From positions 1 to 13,400 of the forward strand of contig JAFXSE010000009.1 in assembly GCA_017525855.1 (NCBI GenBank): 13,400 bases of DNA, in the 5' to 3' direction. The translations under genes were made by a program, and so were the position numbers. Below the pieces are notes generated by a model that worked only from the letters and a program-made list of their open reading frames with translations, did no database searches and was not told the DNA's origin. The DNA is from Bacilli bacterium (lineage in GTDB: Bacteria; Bacillota; Bacilli; RF39; UBA660). The first letter of the stretch is position 1, and every line of letters starts with the position of its first letter. Below, one piece after another: positions 232 to 13,400 of the stretch.

Positions 232-3200
232 TTAAGCATCACAGTTTTCTCTGCAAATGTGATCTTCACATAATGAATAAGGTTCAGAACAAGAGATACG
301 TTTACCACAAAATTTAGATTCTGCAACACAAATATTCGTAGAACAAAGATAAGGATAATCAATTGGGCATTCAAGCATAGGTCCACACATGATTTCATTT
401 TCAACACATTTAGTATCAGGACAAACAACATAATCAGGATTAGTACAAGTAATAGTAGATGGGCATAGACTATTTGAATCGGTTTGAGTTTGATCAACAC
501 ATCTTACCTTCTTAGTTAATATATCAGATCTAGGGCATTCATCATAATTATCTTTACAAGTTAAATCAGCACAAAGTACTTTACCATAAGGGCATACCAA
601 TTGACTTGGAGGTCTACCGCCTTCAGATCTACAAATACCATCAGCTTGTCTTTCAGCTCCTCTTTTTGGACATTTGAATTCCAAAAATATAGGACACATA
701 TCTTCTCTATCTTCTGGAACACAATATTTCATATAGTCACATTTAATATATCCAGTTGGACAATCACAATCAGTTTGAGATTTAACACAGGTTTCAACAC
801 CATCAACTTTACAAAGGAATGGAGCAGATATATTACATCCATTAGGTGGTTGAATACATGAAAGATAATCTGTAGCACATTCATTATTAGCACATAATAT
901 AGGAGTAGAACCTGAACATGTTCTTTTAACAAATTCTAATTGAATATCATTACCATATTTTAGACCATCATTTGATAATGAGATATAATAAATTGATGGA
1001 TAATCAGGAACAAATGATACAGTATATGAGCCATCATTATTATCTTCTATTTCAAGAGAAGTTAATTCTACATCATTATATTCCATTTTTCCTGTAACGA
1101 CAAATTCTTCACCACCAGTAGTAATTTTGTTATCATATTCATCATAACATTCAAAAGAAAAACTAAATGGTCTAACAGATACATATTTTTTGCTATTAGG
1201 TATATATACATGAGAATTATCTTCTGCCCGACACGGTCCTGGTTCTACAGTTAATTTGGGTAAAGGTTCATCACCATTGACTACTGTTATTTCAGTACCA
1301 TTGTAATACATATGCATTTGGTATGTTCCAGCTTTATGAATTTCTAATTCATAATTTAATTCTCCTGATTTAATTTCATATTTATCAGCTTCTAAGTCAG
1401 TTTCGTTATATGAATTAGTATCATCGGTTAATTCTATGGTAAGATCATTAAGTAATGGGTCAGTTAATTTATTTCCATATTTATCAGTTCCTGTAATTTT
1501 GAATTTTACCATATCAGTTACTGAAATATGTTCAGGGTCAAAGTCATATTCTAAATTGAATAATGAATATCCTAATGGAATACATACTTGGTTATTTTGA
1601 CCAATTAAAAGATTATTCCCATATACTTGAATAAGATAATCACCAGCATATTTATATATATCATCATCAGCAGTAATTATCTTGTATTCATTATTACATT
1701 CACCATTGGCTTCTTTTTTTGTTTTTTCAACTTGGTATACTTTAGTAAATAAATTAGGTGAATCGGCTGGGCCAGTAACTTTAATTTCGAAATAAGGACT
1801 ATAATCTTTACCATCATCGAAGCATTCTCCTTTCTTATCAAATGTATATAACCACATATCTAATAATTCTCCGACATATATTCTTTCTTTATTTTTAGAT
1901 ACAATTTGAGTTTGGTAATAATCAATAGTTGATTGAATATTCACTATAATATCATCCATGAAGCAATATACAGAATTTTCTCCATCATTATATTTAACGT
2001 TCATTACCATTTTATTTGGAGGATATTTTGGATATATTACTAATTTATAAGCTTCTTTATCATCATCTAATGCATCTAATGACATAGAAATTACTGATAT
2101 AGGATATTCATTATTTAATAAAGTTAAATAAGAATTATCTATTATATCATTTCTTCCTTTGAATGAATTATTAAATTTATCTGCTAAAGTAAAATGAATT
2201 TCGAAGTTTTCATCAGCTGGTATTATTGATTCAGGTTGTCTTATTATCTTAGTATAATTTTTGCATGGTACTTTATCTGGATAAACAGTATATTCAGCTG
2301 GACCTACATTTCCTTTTTCTCCTTCAGTTGATTTAGGATCAGTTAAAAATACATCCATAGAATAATCTCCTTTTTTCTCAGAATAAATAGTAATAGTATA
2401 TATTCCATAGTCAGAACCAGCTTTAACAACTTCTTTGCTAAATGATGGATCTAATTTATTTATTCCGATTTCAATATCTTCATCAATATCTATATCATCA
2501 TTATATAATAAACCTTCTTCAGTTCTTAATTCTAAAGTAAATTCTTCATAATTTCCTGCAACGAAAGATGTTTTTTTAGGAGTTAAAACGCATTTTTCAA
2601 TAACATATGGTCCATTACCATGTTTATCATCTCCATTTGTAACTACTACATAATATTTAAATGAAGCTTTATCTGAATCATATTTTACATCATAGGTTAA
2701 ATCATAAGTACCTTTTACTAAATGTTGATAAATATGAATTGCTTTTTCATTTTCATTAAAATCTAATCCGAAATATGAAGTATATTTACTAACATTGAAA
2801 CTTATCGGAGTCATTTTATTACCAGATAATAAAGGATCATCTACATTTGCTTTATTAGGTATATTTGAAATAAAGTTATTGTATTTATCATATAAAGTAA
2901 CATTTAAGATTAATGGTTCATTAACATCAACAGAGAAACTATCTCCATTTTTATATTGAGTAAATGAGCCTTTGGTTACTTCACGAGTTAATATTGATTT
3001 TGTTGGGTCTGGGTCACCAGGTTCTACAACAATGATAACATTAGATGTATCAACTTTTTGTGTTTTGTCATATACTAAAGTTACTTTAACATTACCGACA
3101 ATAGTAACAGGTGTAGTAGAAGTATAGACAACTTTTTCAATTAAAGAATCAAAAGCACCTGTTGAGTCATGTTCTTCATTATTTGCATCAATGAATGTTG

Positions 3201-6200
3201 CAGTGAATTTATTTACATAATTATCAACATATAGAGCATTACCATATTTATCAAATGCTTCAATTGTTATAGCTGGCTTACTTCCTGCTTTAATTGGAGT
3301 GGCTCTTTCTTTTACGACTAATTTAGATAAATCGATAACACCTGGATGAACAATGAATATTGATTCATTAGGTAAATATAATCCTTGTGGACCAGATTTA
3401 TCAGTGCTTACAACATATGTACCAGAAACAGTTATTTGAGAGGTATATTTTCTATATCCAGTTGATTTATCTGTTTCTGAGGTAGTATCTTCAACTTCAT
3501 CTCCTCCTTTTTTAGATACTTTAATTCCTACTACTTCTTGTAAAGTTTCAGCTAAATTACCATATTTATCGTATGAAGCCACTTCAAATACATATGGATT
3601 ATCTACTGTACCATCTTTTAATACATCACTTGATTTACCATCTTTATAATAATCTTCAAGTATTTTTGTCCTAACAACAGCATCAGGTGAAACTTCCATT
3701 TCAGGTTTTAAATCATTAATTAATTCATCATTTAAATAGATTTTTAATGGACATTCTTTTAATGTTGGATAAGTATTAGCTTTTTGACTAGTAACTGTTA
3801 TATAGAATACACCTTTAGTACCTGCTTTTTCTTGGACATAGTCAAATGTTTTATCATTTGGATCACATGATTCAACTTTAAATTCATATCCTTCCCATTG
3901 ATTCTTTCTAATATTATTTTTAGTTCTTAATTCTATTATCATATATCCAGTATTTCCTGCAACATATTTCAAATTTTGTTCAACAATATGAGTAGATTGG
4001 ATATCAACAGGTTCATTAGATCCTCCTTTACCATCTCCATATAAAGTAATATTATATGCTAATTTTTTAGTACCATCTGTAAATATTAAATCATAAAATC
4101 CTCCAACTAAATCAGTATATTTATGTTTATTGTTATCATCATCAATTGCGAATTCGGCATATTCTTGATTGGTTGTTTCTTTATTATTTAATTTAAGATT
4201 ATAAACAGTATCTTCAAATTGAGCAGATAAATATGATGAATATTTTTTAATTTCATCTTCTGGAAGAATATCTATAGAATTTCCAAATTCATCTCTAGGA
4301 TATAATCTATATAAAGGTTCATCTTTAGTATTCTTTTCTACAGTACCATTTTTCAATACCTCAAATTCATTTTTAGTTGGTTCTAATCTAAGAACATTAG
4401 AATTTAAGAAATCTATATCTTTAGCTTTAATATTAATTTTGCAAACAACACAATGAATAGGATTAGCATCAATATATCCATTAATAGTAGTTATACCTTT
4501 AACATAGAAAGAAGCAGGATAAGTAAGTACATTTTTACCATCTTTAACTTCTACAGATTGTTTAACAGTAATTATTTTATTTGTTTCTTTTTCATTACTA
4601 TATTTAACTTGATAAGGAGATACATCTTTATAAGCACTTGCATCTATATAGTTATTATATTTATCATATGGAGTAATATAAATTTTAACTTCTTGTCCTA
4701 CCCATACATCAGTATCACTTACTTCTAATAAACTGTTATCAGCATTAGGAGCTCCAGGGGTAAATATTATAGAATATTGATCTAATGGGAAATATTTACC
4801 AACTACAATATGTTCAATAGCATAAGTTGATTTTAATGTAATAATAATTTCACCGTTGGCTTGAGCAGCTAAATCAGCGCTCCAGGTATGAGACTTTGAA
4901 GTATTAACTGGTGCCATTTTAATTTGGAGAATGGCTAAATTGAAATCAATATTTGTTATTAAGTTGTCATATTTATCATAGAGTTTATTTATCATCTGGA
5001 ATGAATCTTCTACTGATACACTACCTAAATATGATTCTAAAATTTCTTCTCCAGTCATTCTGAATAATCTGGATTTATATGGCTCTGCTGGAATGACTTT
5101 AATTGTTATTGGTTTAGGTACCTCAACACCTTCAACTGTAACAGTAGCTTTAAATGGATCAGTTTTTTTATAACATTTGAATTTAATATTATATTGTCCT
5201 GGTTTTTCATCTCTAGCTAAAGAATAAGTACAATTTTTAACTTCTTCAGGGAATTTAACTGAAATATGTTTTTCTGGCTCAGCAAACCAATATGATTTTC
5301 GTTTATCATTTTCGGTTCTTAATTCTAAGGAAACAGTTCCTTCTTCTCCTGCAACTAAGGTTATTTCTGATGGTTCTAAACTTGTTTTTTCTGGAGCTAT
5401 TTGATCTGGATCACCATCTGAGTATCCTCCTGTTAATTTTACTGGATAAGTTAATTGTTCTTTTGTATCTTTATCAGTTACAATTAATTTATAATTTTCT
5501 CCATTAGGCACATATTGCCATTTTTCTTCATTTTCATCATTATCTTGAGATTTACATAATTTAGATAATTTATGAAGTTCATCATTTGATACACATAATT
5601 TAACATCAGTTACAACTATTTCAGTACCTACGTTTAATTGTTCTACTTCTTTTTTATCTGTTATAGGATTTTTATACTTATCATAGAAATTAAGTTGGAA
5701 GTTAGGTGGAATAGTTACAGGTAAAGTATTAAGTTCAGTTTGAGACATTTCTTTATTTTCATTTTTGTTAATAACTTTAGTTTTACTAAAATCTAATTTA
5801 CCTGGACCTATAGTAAATTCACAATTAATACATTTTACACTTTGGTCATCATAATCAACTAAAAATTGTGCATCACCAGCTTTAGTAATAATAGTTTGAC
5901 AATCAATATTTGTTGAAGCTTTAGAAGCATCACATTTATCAGAAATATCTTCTTTATAATCATTATCTATTGTATAATCAACATCAAATTTATCTAAATC
6001 ATCTTTAGTTGCATTAGTTACATCATTTCCATAAGCATCTTTTGGATGAATAATTAATTTAGTTGTATCTCCAGCTTTAACATCATCAGTTTTTTCTACT
6101 TCAGCATAAGATTGAGCTGGGTCAATTGGTCCACTCCATAAATAATATTCATAAGTATTAGGATTGTATTTAGATGTTAATATTACTTTTGTAACTTTTT

Positions 6201-8250
6201 TACTTCCATATTGGACATTTAAGAAGTAATCATCAGTAACATAGTTATTAGTAGTTAAATCATATCCTCTATCTGATGCACCATTTGTTAATTGTTCTAA
6301 TTTTGATTTTGGGAATAATGTTGTATTAGTTATATCAGTATATAAATTACCATATTTATCTTTTGGTATGAATTTAACAATTGAAGGATTTATAACAGTA
6401 CCATCTACTGCACCAGAATCATAAACTAATTCAAATAGATCAGGAGCACATTTAATATGTAGAGTAACTGTTTGAGGAATAGAATTTTTTTCATAAGTGA
6501 ATGAAAGGATATTATCTTTACCTCCAGTTGTTGCTACATATTGTGTTACAAATAATTTAATTTGTCCATCTTTTTCTCCTTTTGTTTTTTCAAGAATAAT
6601 TAAATTAGAATCTAATTTGTAAGAATTACTAATATCAAATGAATTAAGATTAACTTCATAGTTCCATCTTAAACCATCTTTACATCTAAATTCAATATCA
6701 ATTTGATATCTTTCTCCAGCTACACCATCTATATATGTAGGTCTAATATATGTTTTACTTAAATCATATTTTTGATATGGAGATACATCTTTTTCTCCTA
6801 ATAAATAAAGTGGATAATCAGCATATTGTCCATCAACAGTAAGTCCTAAATGATATAAGCCTCCTGGTAATTTTCTAAATTCAATGCAATCTTTATGAGA
6901 AATATAAATAAAATCATCCATATTAGATACCTCTAAATCCCATGTATTAACATCATTGAAAGTCATAACACATGAAGAACTAATTTTTTTATCATATAAA
7001 GTAATTTTTTCTCCATTAGCTGTATATAAATATAATTTATAGAAAGGACAAACTTCTAAATTATTTATATTTGTTTGTTCAGTAGTAGTCATATAATTTT
7101 CTACTCCATCTCCTATATCATAATATAATTTACTTGATTTTAAGTCAATTTTTTGGTAAGAAACAGTAACAGTTTTCTTTTCACCAATTTGTTTTCCATC
7201 ATAAGTGACAGATACTTCATATGTTCCTATGGCTTTATAAGTATATAAATATTTTATATTATTATCTTTTGTAACAGAATTATAATTATATTCAATATCT
7301 TTATCTTTATGAGTAACTACTTTAAGATTATCTTTTTCTTTTTCTAATTGCCCACTTACAGTACCTAAATTAACTCCATATTTATCTACTAAGGTAACTA
7401 AAACAGTTGATGATTCATTAATTATATATTCTGTTTTATCAATTGCCCAATATGATTTGTCTACATCTACTTTTCCAGGAATTCTAGTATAGGTAAATGA
7501 ATATTTTTTACCACTTTCATTACATACTATATTCCAAGTATGTTTATTAATTGCCATATATATTTTATCAGTGAATAAATAATCTTTTTTTTGGTCATTG
7601 AAATCATAATTGTAATAATTTTCATTAGTACCAAATGAATCAGAACTAATTGTAATTTGATTTGTACCTTTAACTGAAGTTAATATATAATTTTTATATT
7701 TATCTTGTAATTTAAAGTTGAAATTAATTTCATCATCATTTGATATATAATTTTTCCAAGTATATTTATCTCCAGAAACAGTAAATTTGTCTTTATCTTC
7801 TACTTCTAAATAATAAGCTGGACCACTAGTAACTATTAAATTTATTTTTTGATCTATTTTATTTCCATCAACCGTAACAGTGAAATAATTATTTTCATTT
7901 ACTTTACTACATGTTACTTTAATAGCATATTGTCCTGGTAAATCAGCTTTATCAACAGAATATGAACAAGTATCTTTATCTTCATTGAATTCTACTTTTA
8001 TTTTGTCATTAAAATCTGGATACCAATAATTTTTACGGACTTCTTTTGCTGTTCTAATTTCCATAATAGTTTTTCCTTCATCTCCGGCTTGTATTTTTAT
8101 TGTTGTTGGTTCAAACTTTGTTTTTGAGAAATCTGGATCATCTGATGAACCATCTGAACCTCCTATTATAGTAATATTATATTCAAGTTTATTATCTGGA
8201 ACACCTTTTTCTTGTACTATTAATTTATAATTGTCTCCATTTGTAATATA
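232..8250 (-). CDS. C-terminal part of the giant Ig/filamin-repeat, Cys-rich protein (residues 1653-4324)
   Basis: This is the continuation of the same frame after the internal TAA: 2,672 codons ending CDA then TAA at 232-234. The first codons read YITNGDNYKLIV and align with YVPNGENYKLIV at residues 2565-2576. The first ATG (8064, residue 1715) would start a 2,610-residue product in the middle of the LRT-type element of unit 4, without a signal peptide, so it is an unlikely true start. Contents: the end of unit 3, units 4-8, a clear filamin-type repeat (3989-4094), and a tail with 32 Cys in 229 residues. D-x-[YF]-x-N turns recur at residues 1835, 2283, 2390, 2509, 2744, 2848, 2972, 3213, 3319, 3440, 3676, 3908 and 4022. 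The long intact frame in AT-rich DNA argues for continuing or very recent coding selection. Confidence 0.9.
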   Translation of the reverse strand, partial: YITNGDNYKLIVQEKGVPDNKLEYNITIIGGSDGSSDDPDFSKTKFEPTTIKIQAGDEGKTIMEIRTAKEVRKNYWYPDFNDKIKVEFNEDKDTCSYSVDKADLPGQYAIKVTCSKVNENNYFTVTVDGNKIDQKINLIVTSGPAYYLEVEDKDKFTVSGDKYTWKNYISNDDEINFNFKLQDKYKNYILTSVKGTNQITISSDSFGTNENYYNYDFNDQKKDYLFTDKIYMAINKHTWNIVCNESGKKYSFTYTRIPGKVDVDKSYWAIDKTEYIINESSTVLVTLVDKYGVNLGTVSGQLEKEKDNLKVVTHKDKDIEYNYNSVTKDNNIKYLYTYKAIGTYEVSVTYDGKQIGEKKTVTVSYQKIDLKSSKLYYDIGDGVENYMTTTEQTNINNLEVCPFYKLYLYTANGEKITLYDKKISSSCVMTFNDVNTWDLEVSNMDDFIYISHKDCIEFRKLPGGLYHLGLTVDGQYADYPLYLLGEKDVSPYQKYDLSKTYIRPTYIDGVAGERYQIDIEFRCKDGLRWNYEVNLNSFDISNSYKLDSNLIILEKTKGEKDGQIKLFVTQYVATTGGKDNILSFTYEKNSIPQTVTLHIKCAPDLFELVYDSGAVDGTVINPSIVKFIPKDKYGNLYTDITNTTLFPKSKLEQLTNGASDRGYDLTTNNYVTDDYFLNVQYGSKKVTKVILTSKYNPNTYEYYLWSGPIDPAQSYAEVEKTDDVKAGDTTKLIIHPKDAYGNDVTNATKDDLDKFDVDYTIDNDYKEDISDKCDASKASTNIDCQTIITKAGDAQFLVDYDDQSVKCINCEFTIGPGKLDFSKTKVINKNENKEMSQTELNTLPVTIPPNFQLNFYDKYKNPITDKKEVEQLNVGTEIVVTDVKLCVSNDELHKLSKLCKSQDNDENEEKWQYVPNGENYKLIVTDKDTKEQLTYPVKLTGGYSDGDPDQIAPEKTSLEPSEITLVAGEEGTVSLELRTENDKRKSYWFAEPEKHISVKFPEEVKNCTYSLARDEKPGQYNIKFKCYKKTDPFKATVTVEGVEVPKPITIKVIPAEPYKSRLFRMTGEEILESYLGSVSVEDSFQMINKLYDKYDNLITNIDFNLAILQIKMAPVNTSKSHTWSADLAAQANGEIIITLKSTYAIEHIVVGKYFPLDQYSIIFTPGAPNADNSLLEVSDTDVWVGQEVKIYITPYDKYNNYIDASAYKDVSPYQVKYSNEKETNKIITVKQSVEVKDGKNVLTYPASFYVKGITTINGYIDANPIHCVVCKINIKAKDIDFLNSNVLRLEPTKNEFEVLKNGTVEKNTKDEPLYRLYPRDEFGNSIDILPEDEIKKYSSYLSAQFEDTVYNLKLNNKETTNQEYAEFAIDDDNNKHKYTDLVGGFYDLIFTDGTKKLAYNITLYGDGKGGSNEPVDIQSTHIVEQNLKYVAGNTGYMIIELRTKNNIRKNQWEGYEFKVESCDPNDKTFDYVQEKAGTKGVFYITVTSQKANTYPTLKECPLKIYLNDELINDLKPEMEVSPDAVVRTKILEDYYKDGKSSDVLKDGTVDNPYVFEVASYDKYGNLAETLQEVVGIKVSKKGGDEVEDTTSETDKSTGYRKYTSQITVSGTYVVSTDKSGPQGLYLPNESIFIVHPGVIDLSKLVVKERATPIKAGSKPAITIEAFDKYGNALYVDNYVNKFTATFIDANNEEHDSTGAFDSLIEKVVYTSTTPVTIVGNVKVTLVYDKTQKVDTSNVIIVVEPGDPDPTKSILTREVTKGSFTQYKNGDSFSVDVNEPLILNVTLYDKYNNFISNIPNKANVDDPLLSGNKMTPISFNVSKYTSYFGLDFNENEKAIHIYQHLVKGTYDLTYDVKYDSDKASFKYYVVVTNGDDKHGNGPYVIEKCVLTPKKTSFVAGNYEEFTLELRTEEGLLYNDDIDIDEDIEIGINKLDPSFSKEVVKAGSDYGIYTITIYSEKKGDYSMDVFLTDPKSTEGEKGNVGPAEYTVYPDKVPCKNYTKIIRQPESIIPADENFEIHFTLADKFNNSFKGRNDIIDNSYLTLLNNEYPISVISMSLDALDDDKEAYKLVIYPKYPPNKMVMNVKYNDGENSVYCFMDDIIVNIQSTIDYYQTQIVSKNKERIYVGELLDMWLYTFDKKGECFDDGKDYSPYFEIKVTGPADSPNLFTKVYQVEKTKKEANGECNNEYKIITADDDIYKYAGDYLIQVYGNNLLIGQNNQVCIPLGYSLFNLEYDFDPEHISVTDMVKFKITGTDKYGNKLTDPLLNDLTIELTDDTNSYNETDLEADKYEIKSGELNYELEIHKAGTYQMHMYYNGTEITVVNGDEPLPKLTVEPGPCRAEDNSHVYIPNSKKYVSVRPFSFSFECYDEYDNKITTGGEEFVVTGKMEYNDVELTSLEIEDNNDGSYTVSFVPDYPSIYYISLSNDGLKYGNDIQLEFVKRTCSGSTPILCANNECATDYLSCIQPPNGCNISAPFLCKVDGVETCVKSQTDCDCPTGYIKCDYMKYCVPEDREDMCPIFLEFKCPKRGAERQADGICRSEGGRPPSQLVCPYGKVLCADLTCKDNYDECPRSDILTKKVRCVDQTQTDSNSLCPSTITCTNPDYVVCPDTKCVENEIMCGPMLECPIDYPYLCSTNICVAESKFCGKRISCSEPYSLCEDHICRENCDA
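235..921 (-). other. cysteine-rich C-terminal repeat region
   Basis: Residues 4096-4324 contain 32 cysteines by hand count, about 14 percent, against very few per module elsewhere. About seven short repeats follow the pattern P-x-x-[YF]-x-x-C-x(3-6)-C-V-x(4-6)-C. Examples are GYIKCDYMKYCVPED, VVCPDTKCVENEIMC, YLCSTNICVAESKFC and SLCEDHICRENC. Disulfide-bonded small modules are expected outside the cell. The protein ends CDA with no hydrophobic anchor. I do not recognise a named family with confidence. Confidence 0.8.
922..2556 (-). repeat. repeat unit 8 (residues 3551 to about 4095), terminal and altered
   Basis: Opens with GNYEEFTLELRTEEGLLYND, so the Trp and the Arg pair of the opening element are lost. 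A GPAEYTVYPD link, DKFNN (3676-3680), DKKGE (3790) and DKYGN (3908-3912) follow. The usual NGxNYKLIV-type closing module is replaced by a further filamin-type domain, so this unit is longer and caps the series before the Cys-rich tail. Confidence 0.72.
925..1242 (-). other. filamin/ABP280-type Ig repeat
   Basis: Residues about 3989-4094. It starts PGPCRAEDS-like, has the turn DEYDN (4022-4026), and then DNNDGSYTVSFVPDYPSIYY (4055-4074). The D-G-S-Y-x-V-x-F-x-P signature followed by a Y-x-I-x-L-x-x-D-G strand is typical of filamin Ig domains. It is the best-defined of the Ig-like modules in this protein and supports the same fold for the less conserved ones. In an extracellular protein such modules act mainly as rigid spacers. 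Confidence 0.72.
2557..3957 (-). repeat. repeat unit 7 (residues 3084-3550)
   Basis: Opens with GNTGYMIIELRTKNNIRKNQ then W3104. DKYGN turns occur at 3213-3217 and 3319-3323, and DKYNN at 3440-3444. The links between modules are HPGVIDLSK and EPGDPDPTKS. The closing module is VKGTYDLTYDV, then TNGDDKHGNG before the next opening. There is no CxxC pair in this unit. Confidence 0.8.
3958..5349 (-). repeat. repeat unit 6 (residues 2620-3083)
   Basis: Opens with GEEGTVSLELRTENDKRKSY then W2640. It has a PGQYNIKFKC strand and TVEGVEV as in unit 4, then DKYDN (2744-2748), a PGAPNADNS link, DKYNN (2848-2852), a CxxC pair at 2919/2922, and DEFGN (2972-2976). The closing module is GGFYDLIFTDG followed by YNITLYGDG, the same position as NGENYKLIV in unit 5. 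Confidence 0.8.
5350..6717 (-). repeat. repeat unit 5 (residues 2164-2619)
   Basis: Opens with ERYQIDIEFRCKDGLRWNY (2165-2183). It carries DKYGN (2283-2287), SGPIDPAQSYAEV (2358-2370), DAYGN (2390-2394), a CxxC pair at 2459/2462, a PGKLDFSKTK link and DVKLCVSN (2534-2541). Its KWQYVPNGENYKLIV module (2562-2576) supplies the intact counterpart of the interrupted sequence in unit 3. Confidence 0.84.
6718..8085 (-). repeat. repeat unit 4 (residues 1708-2163)
   Basis: Opens with GDEGKTIMEIRTAKEVRKNY followed by W1728. Then come a PGQYAIKVTC strand and TVDGNKI, a GPAYY link, a module with DKYKN (1835-1839), a PGKVDVDKSYW link, and DKYGV (1941-1945). The second half matches unit 2. The unit is 456 residues long, exactly the same as unit 5. 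Confidence 0.82.
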
Positions 8251-9492
8251 TTACCATTTGTTGATGTTATCATCTCCATTAGATGATGGACATAATGTAG
8301 CAACTTTTTTACCTATTGAATTAGTTACACATAATTTAACATCAGCTCCTTCAAAGATTACTTCAATATCTAATTCTTCTAAGAATTCAGGATCTGTAAT
8401 ACTATTTTTGAATTGGTCAAAGAATGTTATATCAAATATTGGTTCTTTTTTGGCTTCTACTTCATTTTGCTTTTTTGTATCTAAATAATATTCTTTATTT
8501 TTATAATATGTTTTTGTATTTTGGAAATCAAATTGACTAGCAAAGACAGAAAATACACAATTTTTACATTCTATTTCATCTTCTAAATAATGTACATGGA
8601 AAGCTATATTACCAATATATGAAATTGGTGTAACACATTCAATTGTATCATAAACATTAGTAGTATCATCTATTAATTTTCTAATAATAATATCAATAGC
8701 ACTTGAATGCCCTTCACTTAGTTTACAGTCTTTTACAGTGAATTTTTCATCAGTTTCAACAATTTTATAATAAGTAAGGAATTCATCTTTTTGTTTATCA
8801 CCTAAATCATCAATATCATTTAGATATATATCTTTTGGATATATAACAATTGTATAATTACTTCCAGCAGCTTGATCTGGGGATGTTTGCATTTCAGCAT
8901 ATGATGTTTCAGGAGATATAGGACCACTTTTAATTCTATAGTTAATTGGCTCATCTAAATAATCTGAAGTTACTTGGACATTAGTACTAATAGTAGTTTT
9001 GTATTGAACTTTTAATAAACCATTTTCAAGATAATTATTAGTTGTTAAAGATACACCTTCTAAAGATTTTCCATGAGTTAATTTATTAAGATATTCTTTA
9101 GTTACTGAACTATCAAAGGTATATAAATTACCAAATGAATCTACTGGCTTGAAAGTTAAAATAGGATGGTTTATAACATTTCCATCAGTAGGTCCATCTA
9201 CTAACACTAATTTGGCAAAATCTCCTCCTTTAATTGTAAGTGAAACAGTTTGAGGTATTTGTTTGCTGTCATATAATATAGTTAATATATTATCTCCTTT
9301 ATCAGTAACTACATTTTGAGTAACAGATATTATATATTGACCTTTTTTATATCCTTCCACAACTTTAGTAATAAATTTATCACTACTTAATCCATAAGAA
9401 TTAGTAAATTTGAATTTATCCAAAGAACCCCTATAATTCCATCTTAGTCCATCTTTTGCTCTAAATTCTAATTTAATTTCATATGTTTTTCC
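8086..9492 (-). repeat. repeat unit 3 (residues 1239-1707), contains the internal TAA
   Basis: Opens with KTYEIKLEFRAKDGLRWNY (1240-1258), nearly the same as the opening of unit 5. Further matches to unit 5 are PQTVSLTIK, GNLYT, LTTNNYL, SGPISPETSYAEM, the C-x-x-C pair at 1547/1550, DVKLCVTN (1622-1629) and KW-stop-YITNGDNYKLIV. The TAA codon is residue 1652, near the start of the last module of this unit. Confidence 0.82.
8251..8253 (-). other. in-frame TAA at a conserved glutamine position
   Basis: On the minus strand the codons read AAA TGG TAA TAT ATT ACA. The paralogous position in unit 5 (near 5505-5520) reads AAA TGG CAA TAT GTG CCT, that is KWQYVP. The flanking residues on both sides are homologous, so the TAA replaces a CAA by a single C-to-T change (G-to-A on the plus strand). 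No frameshift is involved. All other codons from 13206 to 235 are sense. Whether this is a mutation, an assembly or read error, read-through, or a rare TAA-for-Gln reading cannot be decided from this window. Confidence 0.93.
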
Positions 9493-12400
9493 GACTTGAC
9501 CATCAATATGTGTTGGATCTACAAAGGTTTGAGATAAATCATAATCTTTTTCATTAGAATAATCGTTATCACCATCTCCTACTAAATATAATTGATAATC
9601 TTGGCTTTCTCCATCAGCTGTAACTGTTAAAATATAATCTCCACCTTTTAAACTTGAAAATTGGTCTTTATCTTCATTTTGATAAGTAAATTGAATATAA
9701 TCACCTTTTTTATTAACTTTTAAATTCATATTTATTCCTTGTCCAGTCATTGTACATGAAAATTGATTTGCTGAAGTATATATAGTTTTGAGTCCACCAG
9801 AAGTATATAAAATTAAATTATAGAAAGGAATTTGTAAACTATTTTGAATTGTATATTTTGTATTTGGATACATATCAATTGTAGAATCTAATACCATTTG
9901 TAATTTACTTGATTTCAAACTAAATTCAGGAGCTGTAACTTTTAAAATTTTTGAACCACTACATGGGATATCATGAGTATTATAATAGGCTATAATTTCA
10001 TAAGTACTTGCTGTATCAAAAGCATGTTGGAATCTAATAGCATAATTACTTGTAATTTGAGCAAATTCAAGATTAAAAGATTTTTTAGTAGATTGATCTA
10101 TTGCTGTAACTTGAACATTTCCTTTTATTTCATTTAATTTACCTTCAGTTATTCCCATAAATGCATTATTTCCATCTTTTAAATATACATCAACAAAACC
10201 ATATTCATTTATATTTATATCATTTTTTAATAAATTATAATAAGAATATTCTAAAGAAACTGTTTTTTTTATTCTTGATTGATCATATTTTACATAATAT
10301 TTGTGATTACAAGTACCATCTCTCATGTGAAATACCCAAGTATATTGTTGGTTTGCGAAATCAAGTTTATCTCTAAATTGATAGGCTTTAGCAGTTTTAT
10401 TATATGATATTGTATATTTTCTTGTATCAGCACCATATTGTAAGCAATAAATATCAACATTATTATCAAAGATATTATCTTTAGTTAAATTTTTATAGTT
10501 TTTATCTAAAACAAAGAAGAAAAATTCTAAATTACCATCTACATAATCTCCTATATAATCATAATAATGTTCTCTAGGTTCTGGTAAACTAGTAAATTCA
10601 AATAATTCAGGCTTTTGATATTGTAAATAACAAGCTTGAGATTCTGAAGAATAGACATAATAATTTGCTAATTCATTTCCTTCTACTGTTAATTTGATGT
10701 TACCCCAATATTGGCTACTTATAGTAGCATAAATTTCATAAGTACCCGCAATTGAAAGTGGTACAACTCTATAACTTAATGTTCCACTATTTGTTAATTC
10801 AACTTTAATATTTTTTTTACCTATATCATGATTATATAAATTATTATCATTTGTTTTTAATACAAGTGTGTTAAGCTTTTTTTCTACTCCCATTGAAAAT
10901 TCAATGTCATTATAATTCACACTAAATGATTCCTTTGTTTTTTGGAAACTATATTCATGGAAACAAGTGGTATAAGAACCAATTTTTAATGTATTTGAAT
11001 TAAATCTAAAAGTGACATATTTAACTTCACTTTTATAAGTTATCTTTAAAGTATAATCATAAGAAGATCTTGGAATAATATTATCAGAAGCTTTTTTATC
11101 TACATTATATATACCTATATATTCAGGGGAATTATTATCATGATATATTTCTGCAACAAATTTTGGATAATTAAAAGAATAATCGTGATCACTATAAAAT
11201 TCAACTTTAACTTCTGAAACATCGAAACTTGAAGGATAAGTCTTATATTTAGATATAAGTGTACCTGTTGAATCAGCGAAATCTAATGATGTTAATTTAC
11301 CTCCTTTATCATTTCTATATTCAATTACAGCATTATCTATATCTACCCATTTTTTAGTATAATAATTGAATATTTTTGCATTACCTAATGAAAAAGAAGA
11401 ACTTGATACATATATTATATTTACTTTTGGGCTAATAGTTGTTTTTGATTTTTTACTGTCTTTAGTAGTTAAATACCCATAAAATTGGTATATGCCTGGT
11501 TCTGTAATTTGGAATGGGCATTGATAATAATTTCCTTTATCATTATAACTATTTGTATATGTTTTAGATGAAGGAGTAGTTCTTTTTGTTTGGCAAGAAA
11601 AGTCATATTCACCTGTACTAATAAATGTTTTAATATCCATTATATTTCCTTTTCCATCTTTAAAGTAACAATTATAATATGCAGTATCTCCTTCTTTTAA
11701 AGTTGGCGCTTCAGTATATCCATCTATAGTACAATAAGAATCAGCAGCACTTACTCCCCCTATTATGACATTGAAATTAATAGATTCTGACATATAGGCG
11801 TTTTTAGTAATTTCATAGCTACCAGTTTTTACTACAGTAATAACTAATTGATAATGAGAATCTTTTTGTCTCATAGTAAGAGTGGCAGAATTTGCTTTAG
11901 TTAATGTTAATCCAGTATTTTTTAATATATCAGATGATGTTGTACCGGCATCTGCATCATTTCCAAAGCTATCTTTTAATTCAAAATCAAGTACTATTTC
12001 AATTGAAGATCCTTTTAAAGGGAAATCTCCATCTACTGTTCCATAAGTTAATGTTCTTACACCATTTGAAGAAGTTGAAAAATTATCTATATTTGTTACA
12101 GTTCCATCATGACCGATTAAATTTATATTGTTTATAGCACCTCCGACAATGGTATATTTATTTTCTGGTCCTACACCATGAGAAGCTTCAGATATACCAA
12201 TAGTGTGTTCACCAAGAACATTGCAAGCATTCATCGATAAGAAAAGGCTATATTCATCTTTCATTCTGATTTGTAAGTTAGAAGCAGCACAATCTAAAGA
12301 TAAAGAGAATGAATAAGTCCAGATACCTTGTCTGAAACAATGTGGTATTACTTGGCCTTTATTATTGATAAATGAGAAAAGATATTGAACAGTTTCACCA

Positions 12401-13206
12401 GCTTTATATGTATAAGTATCTAATTCTTGTTCATCCACATAGAATTTACCGCTCATTTTAGAAATATCAAAATTATCTTCACAAATAAATGTTCCAAGGA
12501 CATTTAATTCTCTTCTATTACCATTCATGTTACCAGTGAATCCTACATAAGCAGTATTTGAACCTAAAACACTATATAGATCTACATTATGAGAAAAAAG
12601 TAATTCATTTGGTCCAGAATATACCATTAATTTTTTGTCAGTATATATAAGCCTGAAATCCCAAGTCATGTCTTTTGAAGGATTAAATCTTTGATTAATT
12701 AATTTTCCAGAAATATAGGCTGCACTATCATCATTTGAGCATTGAGAATCACAATACCTGAAAGAATAGCTACTTTCATCAGGATCATTAAGAGTTTTAT
12801 CAAAATCAAATTCAAGAATAAAGCTTTTTGTGAATCCATAATATCCTATATAATCACTTGTTCCAGTACTTAATTTATTTTTGTTTTTAGAAATAACAAT
12901 AGTAAAACCTTGTAAAGTTCCTTCAGTATTAGTTTCTATATAATCAATTCCATTGATCTCAGCTTTTAAATGAACTTCAAATCTAGGCTCTATTAAAACT
13001 TTTCTTCTGTACCATAGAGCCCCATTACCTTCATGGAAAAGTAATGCTGGGACATAATTTCTAGCGGCACCTTCTTCACTTGCTGATGTTTCATCTAAAT
13101 ATGTTTTTCTCATACCTGATGGGCAGGTGTCTTGAGTCATAGTTGATTGGATGACAACCATCCATAATAATAATGCCAGAAAACTAAATCTTTTTATAGT
13201 TTTCAT
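8251..13206 (-). CDS. N-terminal part of the giant lectin/Ig-repeat protein (residues 1-1651)
   Basis: This is the 5' portion of the locus, 1,651 codons ending at the internal TAA. The ATG at 13206 is the first in frame: an in-frame TAA lies upstream at 13282-13284 with no ATG between. It begins with a basic and hydrophobic signal sequence (MKTIKRFSFLALLLWMVVIQ). An L-type lectin-like domain covers about residues 45-243. Repeat units 1-3 follow, with Ig/filamin-like modules marked by turns such as DSFGN (412-416 and 1356-1360) and DQFKN (1597-1601). A CxxC pair lies at 1547/1550. The last residues, NINKW, match the start of a module that goes on past the TAA, so the protein does not end at a natural domain edge. 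If the TAA terminates translation, the product would be a secreted protein of 1,651 residues lacking the Cys-rich tail. Confidence 0.9.
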   Translation of the reverse strand: MKTIKRFSFLALLLWMVVIQSTMTQDTCPSGMRKTYLDETSASEEGAARNYVPALLFHEGNGALWYRRKVLIEPRFEVHLKAEINGIDYIETNTEGTLQGFTIVISKNKNKLSTGTSDYIGYYGFTKSFILEFDFDKTLNDPDESSYSFRYCDSQCSNDDSAAYISGKLINQRFNPSKDMTWDFRLIYTDKKLMVYSGPNELLFSHNVDLYSVLGSNTAYVGFTGNMNGNRRELNVLGTFICEDNFDISKMSGKFYVDEQELDTYTYKAGETVQYLFSFINNKGQVIPHCFRQGIWTYSFSLSLDCAASNLQIRMKDEYSLFLSMNACNVLGEHTIGISEASHGVGPENKYTIVGGAINNINLIGHDGTVTNIDNFSTSSNGVRTLTYGTVDGDFPLKGSSIEIVLDFELKDSFGNDADAGTTSSDILKNTGLTLTKANSATLTMRQKDSHYQLVITVVKTGSYEITKNAYMSESINFNVIIGGVSAADSYCTIDGYTEAPTLKEGDTAYYNCYFKDGKGNIMDIKTFISTGEYDFSCQTKRTTPSSKTYTNSYNDKGNYYQCPFQITEPGIYQFYGYLTTKDSKKSKTTISPKVNIIYVSSSSFSLGNAKIFNYYTKKWVDIDNAVIEYRNDKGGKLTSLDFADSTGTLISKYKTYPSSFDVSEVKVEFYSDHDYSFNYPKFVAEIYHDNNSPEYIGIYNVDKKASDNIIPRSSYDYTLKITYKSEVKYVTFRFNSNTLKIGSYTTCFHEYSFQKTKESFSVNYNDIEFSMGVEKKLNTLVLKTNDNNLYNHDIGKKNIKVELTNSGTLSYRVVPLSIAGTYEIYATISSQYWGNIKLTVEGNELANYYVYSSESQACYLQYQKPELFEFTSLPEPREHYYDYIGDYVDGNLEFFFFVLDKNYKNLTKDNIFDNNVDIYCLQYGADTRKYTISYNKTAKAYQFRDKLDFANQQYTWVFHMRDGTCNHKYYVKYDQSRIKKTVSLEYSYYNLLKNDININEYGFVDVYLKDGNNAFMGITEGKLNEIKGNVQVTAIDQSTKKSFNLEFAQITSNYAIRFQHAFDTASTYEIIAYYNTHDIPCSGSKILKVTAPEFSLKSSKLQMVLDSTIDMYPNTKYTIQNSLQIPFYNLILYTSGGLKTIYTSANQFSCTMTGQGINMNLKVNKKGDYIQFTYQNEDKDQFSSLKGGDYILTVTADGESQDYQLYLVGDGDNDYSNEKDYDLSQTFVDPTHIDGQVGKTYEIKLEFRAKDGLRWNYRGSLDKFKFTNSYGLSSDKFITKVVEGYKKGQYIISVTQNVVTDKGDNILTILYDSKQIPQTVSLTIKGGDFAKLVLVDGPTDGNVINHPILTFKPVDSFGNLYTFDSSVTKEYLNKLTHGKSLEGVSLTTNNYLENGLLKVQYKTTISTNVQVTSDYLDEPINYRIKSGPISPETSYAEMQTSPDQAAGSNYTIVIYPKDIYLNDIDDLGDKQKDEFLTYYKIVETDEKFTVKDCKLSEGHSSAIDIIIRKLIDDTTNVYDTIECVTPISYIGNIAFHVHYLEDEIECKNCVFSVFASQFDFQNTKTYYKNKEYYLDTKKQNEVEAKKEPIFDITFFDQFKNSITDPEFLEELDIEVIFEGADVKLCVTNSIGKKVATLCPSSNGDDNINKW
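9493..10890 (-). repeat. repeat unit 2 (residues 773-1238)
   Basis: Opens with a degenerate element, LVLKTNDNNLYNHD (781-794), in the place of LELRT....R.N.W. Modules later in the unit match unit 4 well. FSLKSSKLQ (1095-1103) and IPFYNLILYTSGG (1126-1138) correspond to IDLKSSKLY and CPFYKLYLYTANG of unit 4. KGGDYILTVTADG (1187-1199) corresponds to PGGLYHLGLTVDG. The unit ends in DPTHIDGQVG just before unit 3. Confidence 0.68.
10891..12399 (-). repeat. repeat unit 1 (residues 270-772), divergent
   Basis: This is the first and most divergent unit. It opens with YKAGETVQYLFSFINNKGQV (268-287), which fits the AG-plus-strand opening of later units but lacks the LRT and Trp residues. Ig/filamin-like modules follow, with turns DSFGN (412-416) and DGKGN (517-521) and link-type starts IGGVSAADS (482-490). 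It is about 40 residues longer than the other units. Assignment to the series rests on spacing and the opening motif and is the weakest of the eight. Confidence 0.5.
12478..13074 (-). other. L-type (legume-like) lectin domain
   Basis: Residues about 45-243. Seen in order: TLQGFTIVISKN (98-109, like the D-G-F-A-F-V-I strand of legume lectins); LEFDFDKTLNDPDE (131-144), matching the family's E-F-D-x-x-x-N-x-x-D-P metal-binding strand and loop with D134, N140 and D141; TWDFRLIYTDKKLMVYSG (181-198), like the W-x-V-x-I-x-Y strand; and TAYVGFTGNMNG (218-229) followed by LNVLGTF, the usual closing Y-V-G-F-[ST] strand. C152 and C156 form a close pair. Proteins with this fold bind sugars, often with Ca2+ and Mn2+. 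Sugar binding here is inferred. Boundaries are approximate. Confidence 0.72.
13135..13206 (-). other. signal peptide
   Basis: Residues 1 to about 24. There is a positive start (K2, K5, R6), a hydrophobic core (FLALLLWMVV) and a small-polar stretch (STMTQ) before the first cysteine at 28. This is a classic N-terminal secretion signal. The exact cleavage site is uncertain, probably between residues 21 and 25. It indicates entry into the secretory pathway. Confidence 0.88.
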
Positions 13207-13400
13207 TTGTTTTTTAATTGTTTTAAAAAATATTTTTTCGTATTTATCATATATTAGATAAATGAATAAAAACTTTAAATATTATAAATAATATTTAAAT
13301 CATTTAATTAGGATTAAGTTTAATGATATATAATTATTTATTATTTTTTTAAATTCAATAATTATTTTGTATAAATAATCAAATGAAAATATTATATTAT
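13207..13400 (-). promoter_or_regulatory. AT-rich 5' flank and probable promoter region
   Basis: These 194 bases upstream of the start are almost entirely A and T, a sharp change from the coding region. The bases just before the ATG read AAAAACAA, an A-rich leader common in AT-rich protists. In-frame TAA at 13282-13284 closes the frame upstream. TATA-like strings are everywhere, so no particular one can be assigned. No divergent gene, tRNA or telomere repeat is seen. Confidence 0.45.

Follow-up and report, generated by a model that had tools for sequence, protein, structure and literature searches.

Gene-sized macronuclear chromosomes of litostome gut ciliates are the closest described counterparts of the locus considered here. 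Those of Balantidium ctenopharyngodoni carry (CCCCAAT)n telomeres, and among its 22,334 nanochromosomes the 6,807 well-assembled ones are single-gene (PMC10978948); no statement on its genetic code was found in the accessible part of that report. Muniziella cunhai, a litostome gut ciliate, also has a (CCCCAAT)n telomere; it has a GC content of 26.3% and uses the standard code, TAA being its commonest stop, and its complete chromosomes average ~28.6 kb with ~6 genes, according to the accessible portion of its genome paper (PMC11316547). Litonotus pictus, of the Litostomatea, is given in the corresponding part of another report as using the standard code, UAA making up 85% of its stops (PMC4967479). 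Transcripts of the rumen litostome Entodinium caudatum, on the other hand, were translated with 'ciliate nuclear genetic codes', which in the available text is a setting and not an inferred code (PMC6925433), and the accessible parts of papers on reassignment in other ciliates do not settle the litostome code (PMC11687900, PMC6879139, PMC10384029).

The window, by which we mean the whole 13,400-nucleotide stretch of DNA analysed, holds a single giant gene with a second TAA inside its frame.

232..13206, minus strand: frame of the giant gene, ATG at 13206, 4,324 codons plus the final stop; the sole gene in the window
8251..8253, minus strand: internal in-frame TAA, codon 1652; CAA in the near-identical contig C9
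5515..5517, minus strand: CAA, codon 2564, at the equivalent site of a later repeat
232..234, minus strand: gene-ending TAA

With one gene on a short chromosome, a (CCCCAAT)n telomere and low-GC ends, this chromosome resembles those of B. ctenopharyngodoni, from which it differs in being 13.4 kb long for one gene and in having repeats at only one end of C9 and none in the window. The telomere is also that of M. cunhai, whose chromosomes are unlike it in length and gene number. Read on the minus strand from 13206 to 232, the frame comprises 4,325 codons, only two of which are stops, both TAA, at codon 1652 and at the end; neither TAG nor TGA occurs in frame within it. The first-pass annotation had described the site accurately: the TAA lies on the minus strand at 8251-8253, and a later repeat has TGG CAA TAT there (the CAA at 5515-5517). 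It was equally right that the other glutamine codons of the gene are CAA or CAG (121 and 1, respectively) and that the frame stays open for 2,672 codons past the TAA. Because the other five frames reach only 106 codons in their longest open run there, the long frame beyond the stop is not a product of chance. The start of the frame looks, by eye, like a signal peptide, and internal repeats are visible in sequence comparisons.

Provenance of the chromosome

Telomere repeats are absent from the window itself and were found at one end of C9, which is contig 9 (13,437 bases) of assembly G000, and at one end of L006, a contig carrying a homolog of the gene. In both, the gene ends in TAA and ATTGGGG repeats follow; in G000 the doubled repeat occurs nowhere else. 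Because these repeats match the litostome (CCCCAAT)n, the window most probably represents a macronuclear chromosome with one gene, from a gut ciliate, that was binned with bacteria, and from the telomere repeats and base composition we infer that the organism is a litostome, probably rumen, ciliate. The bin of L006 is titled Bacilli bacterium, that of L007, a further piece described below, Acholeplasmatales bacterium, and C9 lies in G000.

The gene is absent from five other genomes of the genus of G000. A search of the class, its query taken from beyond the stop, matched 3 of 395 genomes (G000, G314 and, weakly at E 7.6e-4, G057); a search of the order matched 1 of 385 (G000), and neither returned a further DNA copy of the TAA site. 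Such rarity across genus, class and order is as expected for a stray contig in a bin. Bins labelled as bacteria thus contain eukaryotic chromosomes, very probably of gut ciliates.

Near-identical copies and the protein family

C9 is the only other DNA copy of the site compared. It differs from the window by 18 substitutions over 12,975 coding bases, with no indel, reads CAA at codon 1652 and has a frame without internal stop. The near-identical P0001, known as protein only and standing for 67 clustered members, has Gln at the site and, leaving the stop aside, differs from the window at 16 residues. A third relative, L007, is a piece of 3,745 bases with sheep rumen in its record title; it covers window positions 2508-6252, a part that excludes the TAA site, and sides with C9 at both places where C9 differs from the window. 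Over ~45 bases the upstream end of the window (~13355-13400) does not resemble the start of C9, the remainder being 99.8% identical; a different chromosome end might explain this, or misassembly in the window or in C9. We also note that, of the 18 substitutions, 5 are packed into 79 bases (1642-1720), as they would be in a recombined or mixed-haplotype patch. Because of the 18 differences and the unlike upstream end, the window would seem to be a separate assembly of an almost identical chromosome and not to derive from C9 itself. C9 is therefore an independent assembly with CAA at the site, a finding that the earlier annotation had equated with an error in the window, and one compatible both with a true variant and with an error.

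At this position 72 further homologs have Gln (39), Lys (20), another residue (10) or a gap (3). In an alignment of 37 homologs, counted without P0001 and the window, the residues are 32 Q, 3 N, 1 L and 1 E; in one of 35 more distant homologs, counted without P0001, they are 20 K, 7 Q, 3 Y, 1 S and 1 H, with 3 gaps. Judging from these alignments, Gln is typical among nearer relatives and the position is variable further out, so that the description of the residue as a conserved Gln applies to the first set and fails in the second, where Lys prevails. No stop was met at the same place in relatives, 69 of the 72 having a sense residue and 3 a gap; since protein records cannot reveal internal stops, the ends and beginnings of shortened proteins were compared instead.

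The homologs (P0001-P0085) form a large family of giant Ig-repeat proteins of ~4,340 residues. In a first search, which scored the 7,985 candidates sharing most words in a database clustered at 90% identity and so is not a census, 65 of 73 proteins, counting P0001, are each encoded on a contig of 13-15 kb. Seven of these 65 have proteins shorter than 4,200 residues, with breaks near 454, 650, 961, 1018, 1882, 2457 and 3824 in P0001 numbering, and interrupted frames, as far as these records can be read, are not unusual among these proteins. When the 1,651-residue part served as query in a second search, 13 proteins were found, 12 of them new and one among the seven shortened. No shortened relative aligned from either search ends within 100 residues of 1651. 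A conserved short form was accordingly set aside as a candidate, none of the 13 proteins matching the 1,651-residue part ending in that interval. Four homologs of ~4,470-4,480 residues (P0018, P0029, P0034, P0036) carry PF00652, and three of them PF14200, which we take to be ricin-type lectin domains; both are absent from the protein of the window. Relatives were found neither in viral contigs (tblastn) nor in plasmids, and a literature search on ciliates with filamin and GEX2 found no paper on a giant Ig-repeat family.

The stop within a modelled domain and the readings of the TAA

The effect of the stop on the protein can be considered from the following features.

8164..8532, minus strand: Ig-like domain holding the site, residues ~1559-1681 (AlphaFold2 model of the C9 copy, Foldseek; limits deduced from the modelled strands)
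5836..6096, minus strand: GEX2 N-terminal Ig-like domain (PF23616), beyond the stop (Pfam)
967..1212, minus strand: filamin/ABP280 repeat (PF00630), beyond the stop (Pfam; solved filamin-type structures)
235..939, minus strand: Cys-rich tail, residues 4090-4324, with 32 of the 83 Cys of the frame

These two Pfam domains are the only ones above cut-off in 4,324 codons, and at E 0.1 Pfam matches nothing in the 1,651 residues before the stop. For the C9 copy, residues 1420-1900 were modelled with AlphaFold2 using 29 sequences (mean pLDDT 88, pTM 0.63); the model is strand-rich, and its best solved Foldseek matches are Ig-like chains, of the adhesin FdeC (TM 0.32) and of Dictyostelium filamin rods (TM 0.21), these scores being low and taken over the whole model. 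The Pfam matches beyond the stop and the Ig-like fold around the site liken the protein to filamin-type and GEX2-type Ig-like repeat proteins; unlike them it is much longer and secreted-looking, with a Cys-rich tail and only two Pfam domains. Codon 1652 corresponds to model residue 233, at the end of a short helix, and strands 238-247 and 254-262 come after it. We read these in the model as the last two strands of the Ig-like domain, so that the stop would precede them, and a protein stopping at 1651 would then appear to lack part of its last domain, which is not what one would expect of a designed short form.

We consider it highly probable, at roughly 0.92, that the TAA in this copy of the gene is of an ordinary kind, either a variant that breaks the gene or a difference between assemblies, in a ciliate in which TAA is a true stop. 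The earlier suggestions of a recent nonsense mutation, a macronuclear variant or an assembly error are borne out as a group by the CAA of C9 and the Gln of P0001. In the scenario we propose, the window would be one haplotype of a ~13.4 kb macronuclear chromosome that carries a single gene. The ciliate, probably a litostome, would live in a gut, its DNA having been binned with a bacterial metagenome assembly. At codon 1652 a Gln codon would have undergone a recent single-base nonsense change, and as TAA would be a true stop in this organism, translation presumably terminates there. The protein of the TAA copy would then break off inside a domain after 1,651 residues, or perhaps no stable product would form, and copies with Gln would make the full protein of 4,324 residues.

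Such an event would not need to be rare. Stops make up ~3.7% of random changes in this gene when transitions are weighted (6.2% unweighted), and with that weighting the chance of at least one stop among 18 changes is 50% under neutrality. Of the 17 changes that make no stop, 9 are replacements and 8 are silent, a balance below the neutral expectation that does not reach significance (P 0.07), and they carry no sign of long decay and do not prove constraint; 3 of them precede the stop and 14 follow it, again not significantly (P 0.13). At residues 1949 and 2323 the window is family-typical where C9 and P0001 are not, and in this comparison it appears to be a separate haplotype, which moderately favours a true variant. 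A recent real nonsense variant, either a germline allele or a macronuclear sub-population, seems to us the probable form of the ordinary reading. The same reading also contains, and its probability also counts, a pure assembly or base error, in which the molecules have CAA and the contig took the wrong base. The Gln of C9 and P0001 fits such an error, and both the clustered differences at 1642-1720 and the unlike upstream ends are possible signs of mixed assembly in the window or C9. Yet there is not one indel across 13 kb of AT-rich sequence, and the family-typical 1949 and 2323 make many of the window's differences look biological; we hold an error to be possible, though doubtful, and think a real variant the more likely of these two ordinary outcomes. 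The window also has residues of its own at invariant sites, such as the rare S1767 (T in 36 of 37 homologs), which could reflect relaxed constraint or errors.

Let us assume, alternatively, that the TAA is sometimes decoded, by programmed or leaky read-through, so that short and long secreted forms come from one gene. The 2,672 intact codons past the stop would agree with this, as would the non-stop changes beyond the site (7 replacement, 7 silent), which are slightly, and not significantly, below the neutral expectation (P 0.07). A recent mutation, however, accounts for the intact frame equally well, the near-identical copies carry Gln, no shortened relative compared ends within 100 residues of 1651, and the short form would, in the model, stop inside a domain. 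We know of no read-through signal formed by a TAT after TAA. The short and long pair that the first-pass annotation had offered as an option thus finds no support in the relatives' ends, the modelled domain or the copies, and we regard read-through here as very unlikely. Scarcely less improbable is that the cell makes the long form alongside a short one lacking the Cys-rich tail, from a TAA allele that is real and partly decoded, or that is kept as a minority among many chromosome copies.

A further alternative takes TAA as Gln in this organism, either throughout or, depending on context, at a distance from the 3' end. The 'ciliate nuclear' code setting does read TAA as Gln. Codes of this kind exist in some ciliates, according to the accessible part of one report (PMC4967479), the TAA sits at a Gln position, and the E. 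caudatum transcripts were, in the available text, translated under that setting (PMC6925433). Nevertheless, there is one TAA against 122 CAA or CAG codons in the gene of the window, in-frame TAA is absent from C9 and from 2,578 codons of L006, both genes ending in TAA, and the standard code is stated in the accessible text for Muniziella (PMC11316547) and Litonotus (PMC4967479). Within this one gene family, then, in-frame TAA does not recur, with one case in the window and none in C9 or L006. The context-dependent stops of Condylostoma, as described in the accessible part of the source (PMC4967479), likewise include in-frame TAA far from the end of a gene; in contrast, ours is a single case in one copy whose sister copies are sense, in a class reported with the standard code. 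ARAGORN, run with its bacterial setting, found no tRNA in the window, which is uninformative for the tRNA set of a ciliate. Decoding by context, also raised in the first-pass annotation, gains no support from litostomes with a stated code, which in the portions of the sources at hand have the standard code with UAA as the main stop. On the codon counts in three family sequences and the litostome codes as given in those portions, reassigned TAA was set aside, and we judge this reading exceedingly unlikely.

Lastly, irrespective of which ordinary outcome applies, the significance for the genetic code is small, as one candidate for context-dependent decoding is removed. For the biology of these organisms, the finding means that gene-sized chromosomes, very probably of gut ciliates, sit in bins labelled as bacterial and carry a family of giant Ig-repeat proteins.
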